This document shows, piece by piece, positions 5,096 through 48,678 of a DNA stretch of 64,000 nt. The position numbers were made by a program, and so were the translations under genes. Source of the DNA: Candidatus Eisenbacteria bacterium. GTDB taxonomy: Bacteria; Eisenbacteria; RBG-16-71-46; JAFGJU01. The notes under the pieces are model-generated. The model did no database searches, had not been told where the DNA came from, and was given only the letters and a program-made list of their open reading frames with translations. The stretch covers positions 248,001 through 312,000 of the forward strand of contig JAPLKG010000008.1 in the NCBI GenBank assembly GCA_026388185.1, written 5' to 3'. Positions within the stretch are counted from its first letter, which is position 1. Every line of letters starts with the position of its first letter.

Positions 5096-5950
5096 ATGCA
5101 CAAGATTGAAGATTTCCTCGCCGCCTCCCTCCGTGACAGGTCCTTGCAGGCCCTACTGATCTGCATCGTAATCTCCGTTGTCTTGATGACGAAGTACCAG
5201 GGCGATCCCTGGCTTTCTACTCCCAGAGCAAACATCGACAGGACAGTCGGGCAGCTCACAGGCCAGGTAGGCTGGTTTGCACGGTCGATCTGGCTCGCCG
5301 AGGAGTATCGGGTTCTGTATTCCCAGATCGCAGATCGCACTTTTGAGCTCGAAAGACTTGAGGGACTGAAACGAGAAAACGAACGACTTCGCGCGGAACT
5401 CGGCTTCAGTCCCAGAAGCGAATGGGAGTTTCTGCACGCCGAAGTGGTCGGGAAGGAAACCGACAAACTGGGTGCGGTGATTCTTGTCAACCAAGGTTCT
5501 CTGGCGGGAGTCGGGAAAGGGTGGATCGCTTACTCTCCGCAGGGCCTCGTGGGCAAAGTGGAAGGCGTGGGGGAAGAGTTTTCGAGAGTTCAGCTCATTA
5601 CGAATTACAACTCCCCCGTGAGCGTGAGAATCGACAGAAATGAAGTGGAAGCAGTCGTCGAGTGGAATCCCTCTTTGCCGAATCGACTTGTCATGCGGTT
5701 TGTTCAACCCGAGACCGACGTCAAGATCGGCGACGTCGTGATTTCTTCGGGGTTGGGTGGCGTGTACCCGGCAGGTCTGAGAATCGGGAGAGTCTCCAAA
5801 GTGACGCTGGAAAAGGGACGCTGGGAGCTCTACGTAGAGGTGAAACCGTTCGCTGATTTCTCTCGCCTGGTGGAAGTTCTTCTCATAGCACCGGAAAGAA
5901 TAAAGGTCAAGATGCGCGAGAGCGGGCTTTTCAATCCGACAATTGATTGA
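5096..5950 (+). CDS. mreC: Rod-shape-determining protein MreC
   Basis: Protein of 284 residues. A single membrane helix at about residues 15-35 (LQALLICIVISVVLM) is followed by a coiled coil (ELERLEGLKRENERLRAEL) and the periplasmic double beta-barrel (VSVRIDRNEVEAVVEW, GDVVISSGLGGVYPAGL). MreC bridges MreB filaments and periplasmic PBP2. Gene order and spacing match the conserved mre operon. The start ATG 5096 lacks a strong ribosome site and may be translationally coupled to mreB. Confidence 0.92.
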   Translation: MHKIEDFLAASLRDRSLQALLICIVISVVLMTKYQGDPWLSTPRANIDRTVGQLTGQVGWFARSIWLAEEYRVLYSQIADRTFELERLEGLKRENERLRAELGFSPRSEWEFLHAEVVGKETDKLGAVILVNQGSLAGVGKGWIAYSPQGLVGKVEGVGEEFSRVQLITNYNSPVSVRIDRNEVEAVVEWNPSLPNRLVMRFVQPETDVKIGDVVISSGLGGVYPAGLRIGRVSKVTLEKGRWELYVEVKPFADFSRLVEVLLIAPERIKVKMRESGLFNPTID

Positions 5951-14197: not shown

Positions 14198-15748
14198 GTG
14201 AAACTAGTCGTGATTAGAGAAATTCTCATAAACTGTGATCCACACGAAACAAGAATAGCCATTCTTGAAGACAAAGAACTTGTCGAGCTGCTCGTTGAGA
14301 GGGCCGACCGGCGAAGAAGGGTGGGTGACATACACAAGGCACGGGTCAACGCCGTGCTGCCGGGGATGCAGGCGGCCTTTGTCGACATAGGTCTCCCGAA
14401 AACCGCCTTCCTTCACGTGTCCGACCTCGTGGAGTCCCTCGTGGACTTCGACGATCTCGAGGGCGACTCTCGTGACGACGACGAGGAAAAGCGGCGAGAC
14501 GTCAGGCAGGCCGTTAAGATCGAGGACCATCTGAAGAAAGGCCAGGAGATCCTGGTCCAGGTCACGAAGGAATCAATCGGCACGAAGGGGCCTCGCGTGA
14601 GCGGACAGATTTCGCTTCCGGGGAGATACCTCGTCTTGTTGCCGTGCGCAGACCACGCGGGCGTCTCGAGGAGAATAGAAGACAGGGGCGAGCGGTCGAG
14701 ACTGAAAGGCATACTCTCGGACATAAAGCCCCCCGGTTCGGGGATAATCGTGAGGACGGCGGGCGAAGGTAAGACGAAGAAGCATTTCGTAGCCGACGTC
14801 AAGTTTCTGACCCAACTCTGGAAGAGAATCGAAATCAAGGCGAGCAAGGTCCGCGCGCCCGCACTTCTTCACAGAGACATGGAACTGGTGGCCGGTCTCA
14901 TCAGAGACATTTTTACGGACGACGTGCACAAGCTTGTGATTGACTCAAAGAGGGAGCACGCGCAGATCCTGTCGTACGTCAGATCGTTTGCTCCGGAGCT
15001 CAGGAACAGGGTGAAGCTCTACACGGGCAGGACCCCCATCTTCGACTGCTTCGGGATAGAGCCGGAAATAGAAAAGGCCATGGACAGAAAGATATGGCTT
15101 AAGAAGGGCGGCTACATCGCGATAGACCAGACCGAGGCGCTCGTGGCCATAGACGTGAACACCGGACGCTACATAGGTCGCAAGGATCAGGAGGAGACGG
15201 CCTTCAAGACCAACATGGAGGCCGCTCACGAGATCGCCAGGCAGCTCAGGCTGAGGGACATGGGTGGCATAATCGTGATCGATTTCATAGACATGGAGCA
15301 CGAGAATCACAAGAAGGCCATCCTGGACGAGCTTCGATCCGGACTCAGGAAGGACAGGGCGAGGACCAAGGCGTTTCAAGTGAGCGATCTCGGCCTTGTT
15401 GAGATGACGAGGCAGCGTGAAAGACCCAGCCTCCTCCACTACTTCAGCGAAGAATGCCCATCGTGTGGCGGGGTTGGAAGAGTTCTCTCCCTCGAGTCCA
15501 TGTCCATGAAGATAGAACGCATACTCAAGAGAGCGGCGGCGGAACTGGGCGAGAAAGAGATGCGGCTTAAGGTGTCGCCCCAGGTCGCGGTCTACCTTCT
15601 CGAGGAGAGAGGCGCGAGGCTTGAACAGCTTGAGAGAAGGCTCGGGCTCGAACTCGACATAGTGGACGACCCATCGCTCAGGAGAGAAGACTTCAGGCTG
15701 GTCCTGAGACGGGGAAACAAGGACGTCACGTCGCAGTTTGAGGGGTGA
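14198..15748 (+). CDS. rng: Ribonuclease E/G family endoribonuclease
   Basis: Protein of 516 residues, length of RNase G. An S1-like RNA-binding domain (HKARVNAVLPGMQAAFVDIG, read as two parts around residues 47-66) precedes the DNase I-like catalytic part with AIDVNTGRY near 313 carrying a metal-binding Asp, and IVIDFIDM near 355. The zinc-link CPSCGG is near 421. It makes 5'-end-dependent cuts in rRNA precursors and mRNA. GTG 14198 or GTG 14210 could start it; the second gives the more usual MIREILIN beginning. Downstream rplU and rpmA are separated from it by a two-gene insertion. Confidence 0.93.
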   Translation: MKLVVIREILINCDPHETRIAILEDKELVELLVERADRRRRVGDIHKARVNAVLPGMQAAFVDIGLPKTAFLHVSDLVESLVDFDDLEGDSRDDDEEKRRDVRQAVKIEDHLKKGQEILVQVTKESIGTKGPRVSGQISLPGRYLVLLPCADHAGVSRRIEDRGERSRLKGILSDIKPPGSGIIVRTAGEGKTKKHFVADVKFLTQLWKRIEIKASKVRAPALLHRDMELVAGLIRDIFTDDVHKLVIDSKREHAQILSYVRSFAPELRNRVKLYTGRTPIFDCFGIEPEIEKAMDRKIWLKKGGYIAIDQTEALVAIDVNTGRYIGRKDQEETAFKTNMEAAHEIARQLRLRDMGGIIVIDFIDMEHENHKKAILDELRSGLRKDRARTKAFQVSDLGLVEMTRQRERPSLLHYFSEECPSCGGVGRVLSLESMSMKIERILKRAAAELGEKEMRLKVSPQVAVYLLEERGARLEQLERRLGLELDIVDDPSLRREDFRLVLRRGNKDVTSQFEG

Positions 15749-15810
15749 AGGGGCTGAGAGGTGCGCGCAGGGGGTGCGGTGGGGACACACTGCAATATCA
15801 CGCTAGAACG

Positions 15811-15818
15811 TAGGATTG
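15811..15818 (+). repeat. 8-bp direct repeat, left copy flanking the glycan island
   Basis: TAGGATTG here recurs at 19130-19137. The two copies bracket the GT4-fusion and GH130 genes. This would fit a target-site duplication, but an 8-bp match between two junctions of about 60-70 bp is expected by chance in several percent of cases. Confidence 0.3.
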
Positions 15819-15819
15819 C

Positions 15820-18111
15820 ATGATGGAACAAAGCGTAGCGAATTCAAAGATCAACCGCATCGCATTCATCGGCAACTACTCGCCGCGTCAGTGCGGCATC
15901 GCCACATTCACCACGGACTTGTGTGAAGCCATCGCCGGCGAATATGGCGGAACAACGTGCATTGCCCTGCCCGTCAACGACATCGAGGCGGGCTACGACT
16001 ATCCACCTCGCGTTCGATTCGAACTGACGGAAAAGGATATTGATTCTTACCGTCGTGCCGCCGACTTCCTGAATATCAACAACGTCGACCTGGTGAGCCT
16101 GCAATTCGAATACGGCATCTTCGGCGGGCGGGCGGGCAGTTACATCCTGGCCCTCTTGCGTGAATTGCGCATGCCGGTCGTCACGACATTGCACACCATC
16201 CTGCGCGATCCCGACCCGGATCAGCGAATGGTGCTGGAAGAGGTCGCGGCCCTGTCCGATCGGCTGGTTGTCATGAGTGGGCGCGGCGTGGAGTTCTTGC
16301 AAGAAGTTTACCGTGTGTTGCCGGAAAAGATTGATTTGATCCCGCACGGTATACCCGATGTGCCTTTTGTCGATCCGAGTTTCCACAAAGACTTGTTTGG
16401 AGTCGAGGGCAAGATCGTCCTTCTCAGTTTTGGCCTGCTCTCGCCGAACAAAGGGATCGAGAATGTCATCGCCGCTTTGCCCGCCATCGTGGCCCGGTAT
16501 CCGAACGTGGTTTACATCATCCTTGGCGCGACCCATCCCCACGTGATTCAGCACGAAGGCGAAACGTATCGGCTGTCCCTGCAATGGCTGGCCCAAGAGA
16601 AAGGCGTGGAAGGTCACGTGATCTTTTACAATCGGTTTGTCAGTCTGGAGGAACTTGTTGAGTTCATCGGCGCGGCGGACGTCTACATTACGCCCTATCT
16701 CAACCCGGCGCAGATCACCTCCGGTACACTGGCTTACACGCTGGGGGCGGGCAAGGCCGTGATTTCAACGCCGTATTGGTATGCGGAGGAGATGCTGGCC
16801 GGAGAGCGGGGAGTGCTGGTGCCCTTCCGTGACCCGCCGGCGCTGGCCGAGCAAGTAATCGACCTCTTGGACAACGAGGCCAAGCGCCACGCCATGCGCA
16901 AGCGAGCCTACCTGTTTGGTCGGGCGATGATCTGGCCGCAGGTGGCACACCGCTACATGGAGAGCTTTGAACGCGCCCGAGCCGAACGCCGGCATTTCGC
17001 CACCCCCGGCTTCGCGGTCAAACCGCTCGACAAGCGTCCGGGCGAACTGCCCCCCCTCAAACTCGATCACTTGCGTCACATGACGGACGAGACCGGCATC
17101 TTGCAGCATGCCATTTTCACTGTGCCCAACTATCGTGAGGGTTACACCACGGACGACAACGCCCGCGCTCTAATGGTGAGCGCCCTCCTGGAGGAACTGG
17201 GTAGTGGAGAGTCATTCGAACTGACTTCCCGCTATCTGGCCTTCGTCTGGTATGCCTTCAATGCCGAGACCGGACGCTTCCGCAACTTCATGGATTACCA
17301 GCGGCGCTGGCTGGAAGATAGCGGCTCAGATGATTGCCACGGTCGCGCGTTGTGGGCGTTGGGTACGGTGTTGGGTCGTTCCAACACGCCGGCCCTACAG
17401 AGTATGGCTGGCCGGTTGTTCGAGCAGGCCCTGCCTGCCATTCTCAACACGACCAGCGTACGGGCCTGGGCCTTCGCGCTCATCGGCATCCACGAGTATC
17501 TACGGCGGTTTGCCGGTGATCGAATGGCAGGCCAGGTCCGGGAGGAATTATCCGGGCGTTTGTTGGGGTTGTATCAGAGCCATCGTTCGGCCGAATGGCT
17601 CTGGTACGAAGACACGCTGACCTACTGCAACGCCGCGTTGCCGCACGCCTTGCTCATGTGTGGGCAATTCATACCGAATACTGCCATGATCGAGGCCGGA
17701 CTGGAGTCGCTCAGTTGGCTGGCCCACTTGCAGCACGCCGACGTGGGTGGGGGACATTTTGTTCCCATCGGATCCAATGGCTTTTATCAGCGGGGCGGCG
17801 AGCGTTCCCGGTTCGATCAACAACCTGTGGAGATACAAGCCATGAGCTCCGCCTGTCTCGAGGCCTACCGGATCACGGGTGACAAGCGCTGGCGGAAGGA
17901 AGCCCGCCGCGCCTTTGAGTGGTTCCTTGGGCGTAACGATCTGAACCTGCCCATCTACGATCCGACGACCGGTGGTTGTCGAGACGGCCTCCACCCCGAC
18001 CGTCCGAACGAGAATCAGGGCGCCGAGTCTACGCTCGCCTTTCTTCAGACCTTGCTGGAGCTGCGTCTTGCCGAGAATAGCATTGTATCCGTGGAGGCAC
18101 GATCTCAATGA
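15820..18111 (+). CDS. GT4 glycosyltransferase fused to an alpha/alpha-barrel glycosidase-like domain
   Basis: Protein of 763 residues. Residues 10-390 are a GT-B fold GT4 enzyme: N-terminal YSPRQCGIATFT, HGIPDVPF, LLSFGLLSPNKGIENV, and the donor-site stretch YLNPAQITSGTLAYTLGAGK near 295. Residues 405-755 are helical and look like a six-hairpin glycosidase-superfamily domain (GYTTDDNARALM, DDCHGRALWALG, WLWYEDTLTYCNAALPHAL, ENQGAEST). Arginine codons are nearly all CGN, unlike the AGG/AGA-rich neighbours, so recent transfer is likely. It overlaps the GH130 gene by ATGA (18108-18111), so the pair is co-translated. Likely role: making or remodelling a mannose-containing glycan; not proven. Confidence 0.82.
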   Translation: MMEQSVANSKINRIAFIGNYSPRQCGIATFTTDLCEAIAGEYGGTTCIALPVNDIEAGYDYPPRVRFELTEKDIDSYRRAADFLNINNVDLVSLQFEYGIFGGRAGSYILALLRELRMPVVTTLHTILRDPDPDQRMVLEEVAALSDRLVVMSGRGVEFLQEVYRVLPEKIDLIPHGIPDVPFVDPSFHKDLFGVEGKIVLLSFGLLSPNKGIENVIAALPAIVARYPNVVYIILGATHPHVIQHEGETYRLSLQWLAQEKGVEGHVIFYNRFVSLEELVEFIGAADVYITPYLNPAQITSGTLAYTLGAGKAVISTPYWYAEEMLAGERGVLVPFRDPPALAEQVIDLLDNEAKRHAMRKRAYLFGRAMIWPQVAHRYMESFERARAERRHFATPGFAVKPLDKRPGELPPLKLDHLRHMTDETGILQHAIFTVPNYREGYTTDDNARALMVSALLEELGSGESFELTSRYLAFVWYAFNAETGRFRNFMDYQRRWLEDSGSDDCHGRALWALGTVLGRSNTPALQSMAGRLFEQALPAILNTTSVRAWAFALIGIHEYLRRFAGDRMAGQVREELSGRLLGLYQSHRSAEWLWYEDTLTYCNAALPHALLMCGQFIPNTAMIEAGLESLSWLAHLQHADVGGGHFVPIGSNGFYQRGGERSRFDQQPVEIQAMSSACLEAYRITGDKRWRKEARRAFEWFLGRNDLNLPIYDPTTGGCRDGLHPDRPNENQGAESTLAFLQTLLELRLAENSIVSVEARSQ

Positions 18112-19088
18112 GCAATCAACACGTCGAGCTCTTTAGCCGGTATAGGCTCAATCCCATATTGACCGCCGCAGATTGGCCCTACCCGGTCAACAGTGTGTTT
18201 AACCCCGGCGCCGTATTGCTACCGGACGGAACCACCCTGCTCTTGTGTCGGGTGGAAGATCGGCGCGGGCATTCCCACCTTTGCGCTGCTCGCTCCGCCA
18301 ATGGCGTGGACGGTTGGCAGATTGACCAGCGGCCGACCCTGTTGGCTGACCCCGAGCACTTTCCAGAAGAACTGTGGGGCATTGAAGACCCGCGCATCAC
18401 CTACGTCCCCGAGTCAAGTAAGTATGCCATCGTTTATACCGCCTACACACGCGACGGACCCGGCGTGGCATTGGCGTTCACGGAAGATTTCTGCCACTTT
18501 GAGCGCTATGGAGTGGTCATGCCACCGGAAGATAAGGATGCGGCTTTGTTGCCTCGTCGTATTGGCGGCAACTGGGCCCTGATCCATCGCCCGGTCAGTT
18601 CTCCAAGGGCACACATGTGGATGTCCTATTCGCCCGACCTGCGGCACTGGGGCAGCCACAAGCTGATGCTGGAAGCCCGGCGTGGCGGATGGTGGGATGC
18701 GAACAAGATCGGCCTCTCCCCCCCGCCCATCGAGACCCGGGAAGGTTGGCTGGTGATTTACCATGGTGTGCGGCAGACAAGTGCCGGTGGTTTTTACCGA
18801 CTCGGGCTCGCTCTGTTTGATTTGGAAACACCTGAACGTTGCCTGAAGCGCGGCGACGAGTGGGTCTTCGGCCCAGAAGAACCCTACGAGCGGCAAGGGG
18901 ACGTGAACAACGTCGTCTTTCCTTGTGGCAACACTATTGCCCCCGACGGCGACACCATCCGCCTGTACTACGGCGTAGCGGATAGGTGCATTGCCCTGGC
19001 CACAGGCAGTGTTCGGGCTTGCCTTGAGTGGCTGGAGCGCCCCCAAGCATTTTCAGAGAATCTTGCGCTTGACACCCGGCCGCAGTAG
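18108..19088 (+). CDS. GH130 family beta-mannoside phosphorylase-like enzyme
   Basis: Protein of 326 residues, normal for GH130. The five-bladed propeller signatures are present: NPILTAADWPYPVNSVFNPGAV (read in two parts, residues 12-33), GIEDPRITYV near 91 with the catalytic Asp, and WWDANKIGL near 193. GH130 enzymes phosphorolyse beta-mannosides to alpha-mannose-1-phosphate, or in some subgroups hydrolyse them. It shares CGN arginine usage with the upstream GT4 fusion and only two AGG codons were noticed. Mannose-1-P could feed the phosphohexomutase at 55512. The exact linkage specificity cannot be read from sequence. Confidence 0.85.
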   Translation: MSNQHVELFSRYRLNPILTAADWPYPVNSVFNPGAVLLPDGTTLLLCRVEDRRGHSHLCAARSANGVDGWQIDQRPTLLADPEHFPEELWGIEDPRITYVPESSKYAIVYTAYTRDGPGVALAFTEDFCHFERYGVVMPPEDKDAALLPRRIGGNWALIHRPVSSPRAHMWMSYSPDLRHWGSHKLMLEARRGGWWDANKIGLSPPPIETREGWLVIYHGVRQTSAGGFYRLGLALFDLETPERCLKRGDEWVFGPEEPYERQGDVNNVVFPCGNTIAPDGDTIRLYYGVADRCIALATGSVRACLEWLERPQAFSENLALDTRPQ

Positions 19089-19129
19089 TGGTATCTATTA
19101 AGGGTTATTTCTTCGGAGGCGGTTATCCA

Positions 19130-47292: not shown

Positions 47293-48678
47293 GTGGCTCT
47301 CATTTCACTCGGCTGTCCGAAGAACCTCGTGGATTCTGAGGTGATGCTTGCCCGGCTGGCCGAATGCGGCTTCAGCACAAAGAGCGACATGGGTGAAGCT
47401 GACGTGGTTGTGATCAACACTTGTTCTTTTCTGAACTCTGCCAGAGACGAAGCAGAGCAGTGGATAAGGGACGCGGTGCGCCTCAAGAGGCAGGGCAGCC
47501 TCAAGGGTGTTGTTGTTGCCGGCTGTCTGCCGGCGTTGGAGAGAGACCGTCTCTTTGAGGGCTTTGACGAGATCGACGCGATTTTGGGACCGCGTGACAG
47601 ACTCAAGATAGCGGAGGCGTGCGATGTGGCGCTCGAAGCGAACGGCCGCAAGGCAAGCTTCCTCGACGACTCCGACTCTCTTGTTCGCCGTCTCCATCCC
47701 AGGGCGATTTCCACGGGGAGACACACTGCGTATCTCAAGATCGCCGAAGGCTGCAATAACAAGTGTTCCTACTGCCTCATCCCCCGCATAAGAGGAAACA
47801 TGGTGAGTCGCAGCATGCAGAGTCTGGTCGACGAAGCATCGCGTCTTGCGCAATCCGGGGTACGCGAGCTGTCGCTCATAGCGCAAGACACGACCAATTA
47901 TGGAGTGGATCTCTACGGGCGACCGAGACTGGCGTCGCTCCTGAAAGGCCTGTCCCGCGTCGAAGGTGTCGACTGGTTGAGGCTTCTCTACACTCACCCG
48001 GCGCACTGGTCCGACGAGATCGTGGAAGCATTCGCTGAGAATCCGAAACTCTGCAGGTATGTTGACATACCCGTCCAGCATTTCTCGGAGAAAGTGCTGA
48101 GGCTCATGCGAAGGCGCACGTCGCAGAGGGCACTCGTCAGAGTTCTCGAGAAAATGAGAATGGCAGTGCCCGGCATCTCCCTTAGGACCACCGTGATGGT
48201 CGGTTTTCCGGGAGAGGGAGAGAAGGAGTTTGCGGAGCTCCTGGGTTTTCTCAGAGATTTTCGATTCGACCATCTGGGAGCTTTCGCATATTCCAGAGAG
48301 CAGACTACTGGGGCGGCGCGCCTGCCGAATCAAGTGCCGGAGGACGTGAAAGAAGAACGCCTTCACAGAGTCATGGAGGCGCAGCAAGAGATCTCCAGGT
48401 CTAGAAACGAGGCGATGGTCGGCAGGGAAGTCACCGTTCTTGTGGACAGCGTGGGTCCGACACGGACCAGAGGCGTTGCCAGAACGGAAGGGCAGGCCTT
48501 CGAAGTGGACGGCGTAGTTCGCACGAGCGGAGCGAATCTCCAGAGCGGTCAGTTCTTGAAGGTTCTGATAGTGGGGTTCAACGAATATGATCTTTTCGGG
48601 AGGCGCTTTTCTGAAGATGTGTTGACGAATCAAGCGGTGGGAAAGACGACTATTACCAAGAGAAGGAGAGTCGAGTGA
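47293..48678 (+). CDS. rimO: Ribosomal protein S12 methylthiotransferase RimO
   Basis: Protein of 461 residues. The N-terminal MTTase domain starts MALISLGCPKNLVDSE and has NTCSF and GCLPALER; the radical SAM cluster is C154, C158, C161 in CNNKCSYC; a TRAM domain ends the protein. RIRGNMVSRS is family-typical. GTG 47293 is set by GGAGGG (47281-47286); a longer frame inside ftsK is rejected. It methylthiolates Asp of S12. Its stop overlaps the next gene (GTGA). Confidence 0.94.
   Translation: MALISLGCPKNLVDSEVMLARLAECGFSTKSDMGEADVVVINTCSFLNSARDEAEQWIRDAVRLKRQGSLKGVVVAGCLPALERDRLFEGFDEIDAILGPRDRLKIAEACDVALEANGRKASFLDDSDSLVRRLHPRAISTGRHTAYLKIAEGCNNKCSYCLIPRIRGNMVSRSMQSLVDEASRLAQSGVRELSLIAQDTTNYGVDLYGRPRLASLLKGLSRVEGVDWLRLLYTHPAHWSDEIVEAFAENPKLCRYVDIPVQHFSEKVLRLMRRRTSQRALVRVLEKMRMAVPGISLRTTVMVGFPGEGEKEFAELLGFLRDFRFDHLGAFAYSREQTTGAARLPNQVPEDVKEERLHRVMEAQQEISRSRNEAMVGREVTVLVDSVGPTRTRGVARTEGQAFEVDGVVRTSGANLQSGQFLKVLIVGFNEYDLFGRRFSEDVLTNQAVGKTTITKRRRVE

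Follow-up and report, generated by a model that had tools for sequence, protein, structure and literature searches.

A coupled GT4-like/toroid and GH130 gene pair, in all likelihood foreign, between rng and rplU in a Candidatus Eisenbacteria genome

Two glycan-type genes between rng and rplU

How did two genes of glycan metabolism come to lie between rng and rplU in a Candidatus Eisenbacteria bacterium, and what might they do there? We address this question for a 64,000-nucleotide (nt) stretch of DNA (GCA_026388185.1, contig JAPLKG010000008.1), called the window here and numbered over its whole length, which sits within a 535-kb contig of a 2.62-Mb draft genome in 20 contigs. The first gene (15820..18111, plus strand; PF00534/PF13439 above cut-off) encodes a 763-amino-acid (aa) fusion of a GT4-like GT-B glycosyltransferase with a toroid domain, and the second (18108..19088, plus strand; PF04041) a 326-aa GH130 mannoside phosphorylase-like protein; the two share an ATGA overlap. 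An original prediction, made from the sequence letters, had placed two ATGA-overlapping genes of these kinds between rng and rplU, and their coordinates and neighbors agree with it. Its broader claim, that a foreign, self-contained mannoside-type module splits rng from rplU, is borne out by an empty site in a relative, absence of the pair in the family, and a non-vertical phylogeny. We regard foreign origin and insertion as nearly certain, and we consider it probable, taken as a whole, that the pair is a coupled GT4/toroid and GH130 module acquired from outside the phylum and inserted between rng and rplU.

Empty site and distribution within the phylum

In the single-contig genome of a member of the same family (G002), rodA, lgt, comF, the radical SAM gene, rng, rplU, rpmA, the fumarase gene, kdsB, pyrG, and kdsA occur in the window's order at 51 to 86% identity (77% for the rng protein), and the rng-rplU gap is about 106 nt long and holds neither GT4 nor GH130. 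The original prediction had looked to relatives for such an empty site, a feature of horizontally acquired islands, and a close relative (G002, L061) has it. The pair is absent anywhere in both same-family genomes, G001 and G002. Short rng-rplU gaps also occur in G003, G005, G006, G012, G014, G024, and G025, while in G009 the gap measures 0.8 kb and includes a small open reading frame (ORF). Other arrangements were seen as well: in G001 other genes, including a glutamate-dehydrogenase-like ORF, follow rng in place of rplU (L060 1-2816), so that the operon is rearranged, and 6 to 7 kb of unrelated genes separate rng from rplU in G035 (L064 9473-15738) and G010 (L065 8504-15217), so insertions may be tolerated at this junction. 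The pair itself was not found in any other relative's junction that we read. Across the phylum, the GT4 gene is carried by 5 of 47 genomes, namely the host (two copies), G003 (86%), G004 (60%), and G012 and G029 (about 50%).

An artefact of assembly or binning could be suspected given the draft state of the host genome. However, the window lies well inside a large contig, both sides of the insertion are colinear with G002, and two independent copies of the pair occur on different large contigs of the host, so we consider an artefact extremely improbable.

Junctions and a predicted rplU promoter

The left flank is rng itself (ribonuclease G; 14198..15748, plus strand; TIGR00757, 511 bits), which is preceded by a TIGR03960 radical SAM/DUF2344 gene and ends in a stop codon at 15746-15748. 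A left junction and module leader of 71 nt follows (15749..15819, plus strand) and runs from this stop to the GT4 start, with no similarity to the leader of the host's second copy or to that of G003. Similarity to other module copies starts at about 15823 and stops at 19033-19036. On the right, rplU (ribosomal protein L21; 19148..19462, plus strand; PF00829, 128.8 bits) is syntenic in G002 and is followed by rpmA (ribosomal protein L27; 19591..19845, plus strand; PF01016, 127.7 bits).

In G002 the rng stop is followed by 10 nt, then GCGCTTGACA-N17-TATAAATTAAAGGTTAT, then rplU; the window, from 19065, reads GCGCTTGACA-N17-TATCTATTAAGGGTTAT, then rplU. Since the GCGCTTGACA-N17 arrangement is common to both, the insertion took place downstream of the rng stop and ahead of the putative rplU promoter. 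We place this promoter, from sequence comparison with G002, at 19069..19097 (plus strand), where the conserved hexamers TTGACA-17-TATCTA (TTGACA-17-TATAAA in G002) probably act as the rplU promoter; the window's -10 hexamer matches the consensus at 3 of 6 positions, and a promoter consensus scan reported no site at TTGACA-17-TATCTA. The GH130 frame runs about 15 codons past its homologues, and from about 19065 it lies in ancestral rng-rplU intergenic DNA. This C-terminal extension with its stop (19038..19088, plus strand) is absent from five aligned homologues, and the stop codon (19086-19088) falls in the promoter spacer, between -35 and -10. The insertion would thus have been clean, just upstream of the -35 box, and has left the putative rplU promoter intact. 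It shows a predicted ribosomal-protein promoter surviving by joining the 3' end of an incoming gene.

Spread across phyla

A scan of GTDB genomes with a GT4 alignment yielded 80 loci, of which the best 35 to 40 share 72 to 87% identity with the window and bear the phylum labels Myxococcota ("Deltaproteobacteria"), Gemmatimonadota, KSB1, Chloroflexota, Planctomycetota, Actinomycetota, Fibrobacterota, Ignavibacteriota, Nitrospinota, Hydrogenedentota, Bacteroidota, Acidobacteriota, Kiritimatiellota, and Dadabacteria. The closest homologues (81 to 87%) belong to metagenome-assembled genomes (MAGs) labeled Myxococcota, Nitrospinota, Gemmatimonadota, KSB1, and Chloroflexota, and in most of the best loci GH130 directly follows GT4, many of these pairs overlapping as in the window or lying just a few bases apart. 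The pyrG genes of the same genomes show only 43 to 65% identity to that of the window. Over 246 cross-phylum pairs, mean identity was 74.6% for GT4 and 57.7% for pyrG, with GT4 the higher of the two in 245. GT4 is not simply a slowly evolving protein, since its identity was about equal to that of pyrG in several of the pairs inside Chloroflexota and inside Myxococcota, though inside Ignavibacteriota it was again the higher.

We also computed divergence at fourfold sites, at codons of identical amino acids. The window GT4 differs by 0.31 from L094 (Myxococcota) and by 0.32 from L123 (Nitrospinota), whereas pyrG differs by 0.565 from that of same-family G002 and by 0.69 from that of L094. Given these values, the sharing between phyla postdates the genus split in the host family. 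In GT4 trees, phyla are mixed within one strongly supported clade whose internal support is modest. Gene phylogeny is therefore discordant with the core genes, as is characteristic of an island, and these comparisons show that the module has been transferred between phyla. The non-vertical phylogeny for which the original prediction had looked is seen in nearest copies labeled as other phyla, while no single donor emerges from the trees.

Vertical inheritance of an ancient pair, since lost in most relatives, might account for the three sequence classes of GT4 inside the phylum (86%, 60%, and about 50%). It would require many parallel losses to leave so few carriers, conflicts with the empty site in G002, and does not fit a GT4 divergence across phyla smaller than the pyrG divergence within the host family. 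We therefore judge it very improbable compared with acquisition from outside the phylum.

Horizontal transfer of carbohydrate and metabolic genes is a known kind of event; what sets this case apart is the breadth of spread and the unusual GT4. A pair held at 75 to 87% protein identity in more than 10 phyla without mobility genes represents unusually clear interphylum spread, with a synonymous divergence below that of core genes within one family. Such spread suggests that the pair performs a small metabolic task of value to widely differing cells, and it offers a defined set of enzymes to test.

Mobility and recurring neighbors

The original prediction had noted that no transposase accompanies the pair, and indeed the eight flanking and island proteins that we scanned all have housekeeping or glycan annotations, with neither transposase nor integrase among them. 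No long flanking repeat was found, nor a target-site duplication or inverted ends, in the flanking genes and repeats; the ends may have decayed. Virus-borne mobility was rejected, since a viral collection gave just four remote GT4 matches at 22 to 24% identity, as was plasmid-borne mobility, plasmid versions being distant only (under 60% identity). Only the two genes recur as neighbors. A recurrent third partner was likewise rejected: the next most common family, B12/radical SAM, appears in a minority of loci (8 to 9 of 150 neighbors scanned). Movement would thus have relied on outside machinery, the two reading frames being the only conserved parts.

Among individual neighborhoods, genes for B12-binding radical SAM proteins, several of which carry DUF4070, adjoin or lie near the module in L056 (5219-6859), L057 (5101-6828), L101, L115, L116, L117, L121, and L129. 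Genes for small RRM-type RNA-binding proteins lie near it in three unrelated hosts (L055 8439-8711, L098 4058-4456, and L115 5698-5991).

Composition and codon usage

Composition was compared over the window and 20 sampled stretches of the host's own genome (287 ORFs). The arginine codons AGA and AGG (together AGR) make up 0 of 60 in the GT4 gene and 3 of 28 in the GH130 gene, so that 85 of the pair's 88 arginines are CGN. AGR codons number 39 of 55 in rng and 51 of 72 in the radical SAM gene (71% for both together), against a genome mean of 46%. The GT4 gene has the lowest AGR fraction of all sampled genes and GH130 stands at the 4th percentile. By whole-gene codon distance, GT4 lies at the 94th and GH130 at the 85th percentile of length-matched genes, and the two tetranucleotide measures are split: by L1 distance the pair ranks among the top 2.6% of windows, and by z-score correlation it does not stand out (18th percentile). 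The nearly pure CGN arginine usage noted for the island is therefore real, while in codon usage as a whole the two genes fall within the range of the genome, so that a strong compositional anomaly is borne out in part only and composition by itself would not settle the case.

The same bias accompanies the module elsewhere. AGR is 0 to 0.14 in nearly all hosts, often beside flanks at 0.2 to 0.5, and GC content is often above that of the flanks (0.604 versus 0.431 in L123; 0.534 versus 0.348 in L101). Higher GC and lower AGR than the flanks thus mark the module in most hosts, copies in a few (L116, L120, and L125) being more adjusted, and many of the genomes that carry the module differ from it in composition as they would from foreign DNA. 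Because the CGN bias is common to the module in nearly all hosts, it fits a foreign origin and points to no single donor; we accordingly dropped the reading of CGN-only arginine as a mark of the donor. Elsewhere in the window, an ORF at 47305-48633 (minus strand) is likewise poor in AGR (13% of its 46 arginine codons) and is a candidate second foreign gene.

The GT4-like/toroid fusion

Two Pfam domains, PF00534 (67 bits) and PF13439 (37 bits), exceed their cut-offs in the fusion protein. An AlphaFold model (predicted local distance difference test score, 85.7) consists of a GT-B domain (residues about 1-390) and an (alpha/alpha)6 toroid (about 407-763). With VIA-align, the GT-B half matches GT4 and related GT-B structures at Z scores of 33 to 37, among them PimA, PimB', MshA, BshA, and sucrose-phosphate synthase. 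It shares its fold and its Pfam GT4 domains with GT4 enzymes of the PimA/PimB'/MshA type (Z 33-36) but differs from them in its C-terminal (alpha/alpha)6 domain and in not keeping the EX7E glutamates. At the positions of these glutamates in PimA, the window protein has A297/Q298 and Y306. Across 45 homologues of the fusion Q298 never varies and Y306 hardly does; because of this replacement we call the protein GT4-like.

The toroid half resembles the AGE/cellobiose 2-epimerase fold, with Z scores of 37.5 against 7tem and about 31 against cellobiose 2-epimerase (Z 30-37 over residues 407-763 for this group, which includes YPO2471, 7tem). Known AGE-type epimerases use two catalytic histidines. 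Unlike them, the window toroid has no invariant His across the 45-sequence alignment of residues 407-763, H417, H430, and H725 being nearly invariant, and epimerase activity is for this reason doubtful. We found no description of a GT4/toroid fusion with GH130 in our searches of open-licence papers. That the GT4 product contains mannose is conceivable, at somewhat less than even weight.

GH130 residues and predicted activity

Membership in GH130 is clear from PF04041 (190.8 bits against a curated cut-off of 26). K143, R161, and K200 occupy the columns of UhgbMP R150, R168, and K212, which we take to be phosphate ligands; basic residues are kept in all three, and no Glu is present. GH130 phosphorylases have three basic phosphate-binding residues, in place of which GH130 hydrolases carry Glu (PMC4599007). 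D94, in an IEDPR motif, shares a column with the invariant catalytic Asp, D104 in UhgbMP and D142 in BT3780 (numbering from PMC4599007). The enzyme is thus predicted, with good confidence, to be a phosphorylase rather than a hydrolase.

Linkage is less clear. A profile alignment matches E93-D94 to the Glu-Asp that is found in the GH130_NC group, where UhgbMP has Tyr103-Asp104, and GH130_NC enzymes carrying Glu can be beta-1,2-mannoside phosphorylases (PMC4264767). A Lys marks beta-1,2 enzymes (K199 in BT3780; PMC4599007), and K143 aligns with the Lys of the beta-1,2 enzyme Lin0857 and with the Arg of beta-1,4 enzymes, BT3780 being outside this alignment. These residues make a beta-1,2 preference an evenly balanced proposition. 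The GH130_NC enzymes Teth514_1788/1789 and Lin0857 share with the window protein a catalytic-site E-D followed by Pro-Arg (or Ala-Arg), the Lys in the putative beta-1,2 determinant column, the basic phosphate-site columns, and the lack of an obvious signal peptide. In contrast to them, the window protein, known from sequence, scores best against TM1225 and other GH130_2 members, has 326 aa with a host-derived tail, and is coupled to a GT4/toroid fusion.

A possible mannoside cycle and comparable clusters

Taken together, the two genes may be read as an intracellular pair for beta-mannoside synthesis and phosphorolysis. As a translationally coupled unit of about 3.3 kb, acquired horizontally from outside the host phylum, it would act in the cytoplasm. 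There the GT4-like/toroid enzyme would use a nucleotide sugar to make or prime a small mannoside, and GH130, by reversible phosphorolysis, would release mannose 1-phosphate from a mannoside with a beta linkage, probably beta-1,2. A separate guanylyltransferase could turn the mannose 1-phosphate back into GDP-mannose, giving a self-contained reserve or turnover cycle workable in any host that has GDP-mannose. We offer the reserve or turnover role tentatively. The host genome has a mannose-1-phosphate guanylyltransferase-like gene (L218; C8:206890-207963; TIGR01479, 315 bits).

An appreciable, though not favored, alternative is that the module serves envelope or exopolysaccharide synthesis, or the salvage of imported fungal or plant mannosides, rather than an intracellular reserve. 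GT4 enzymes often build envelope glycans, and Thermoanaerobacter GH130 enzymes have been proposed to act in beta-1,2-mannoside salvage (PMC4264767); against this, the pair is accompanied in the window by no gene for a transporter, a secreted hydrolase, or polysaccharide export, and no such gene is a recurrent neighbor elsewhere.

The intracellular pair has a precedent in the Thermoanaerobacter GDP-mannose cluster, in which a GH130 pair stands in one cluster with GT4 and a mannose-1-phosphate guanylyltransferase (PMC4264767). That cluster differs in having 12 genes, with an ABC transporter, GH5, and the guanylyltransferase, whereas the window module has two only, and the GT4 of the Thermoanaerobacter cluster is not known to be a toroid fusion. 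The same two-gene GT4-GH130 arrangement occurs on alphaproteobacterial conjugative plasmids (Rhizobium daejeonense and Sphingomonas sanxanigenens), but with only 44 to 48% GT4 identity and with an extra AGE gene or different neighbors; an AGE-family epimerase gene follows the plasmid pair once. More speculatively, the module could be a "nomadic" unit that has passed repeatedly among more than 10 phyla, lodging beside housekeeping operons and bringing a complete, host-independent cycle that makes and recovers an intracellular mannoside so far undescribed, its GT4 having lost the usual catalytic motif to a replacement; we think this somewhat unlikely in its full form.

Several points weigh against our interpretation of the locus as a whole. 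A mobility gene, a target-site duplication, and an unequivocal donor are all missing from what was found, and the whole-gene codon and tetranucleotide signals are just mildly unusual. The other carriers are almost all MAGs, for which phylum labels can err on single contigs; general mis-binning is argued against because three independent Myxococcota-labeled MAGs agree and housekeeping genes lie beside the module in several hosts. Without the EX7E pair, ordinary GT4 catalysis is uncertain, and the enzyme may differ from the textbook case. The substrate assignment draws solely on residue homology, with no transporter or mannan gene beside the module, and the guanylyltransferase-like match is below its curated cut-off (373) and has one in-frame TGA.

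A second copy in the host genome

The host carries a second copy (B) on contig C14 (L055 9350-12617, minus strand) with 84% DNA identity to the window pair (A). Synonymous divergence (dS) between them is 0.71 for GT4 and 0.46 for GH130, and the ratio of nonsynonymous to synonymous divergence is about 0.11 to 0.18; A and B are therefore under purifying selection and are not a recent duplicate. We asked whether one import into the host lineage, represented by copy B on C14 or by an ancestor of both, could have been followed by duplication into the rng-rplU gap with divergence or partial gene conversion. An approximately unbiased test does not reject A and B as one clade (P = 0.21; 0.067 with G003), and at fourfold sites the GH130 of A diverges least from that of B (0.276), though this does not hold for its GT4 (0.381 to B versus 0.31 to L094). 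However, the distance between A and B equals that of either to other phyla, and in GT4 trees a Gemmatimonadota row joins A while a KSB1 row joins B, at moderate support. We consider this single-import history rather unlikely; one import with duplication, two imports, and partial gene conversion are all possible within a foreign origin of the module.

The surroundings of copy B contain dispersed direct repeats of 50 to 107 nt among short orphan ORFs (L055; C14:12001-32000), at positions 5612, 13115, and 14546; 2536 and 15775; 7735 and 15950; and 12954 and 18299. Several of them end in CGGACCTCCGGCA, and the 19-mer TCGGACCGGACCTCCGGCA occurs three times around copy B and, in the sampled stretches, elsewhere only in an overlapping locus. 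These repeats possibly represent a family of miniature inverted-repeat transposable elements (MITE), of repetitive extragenic palindromes (REP), or of attC-like elements.

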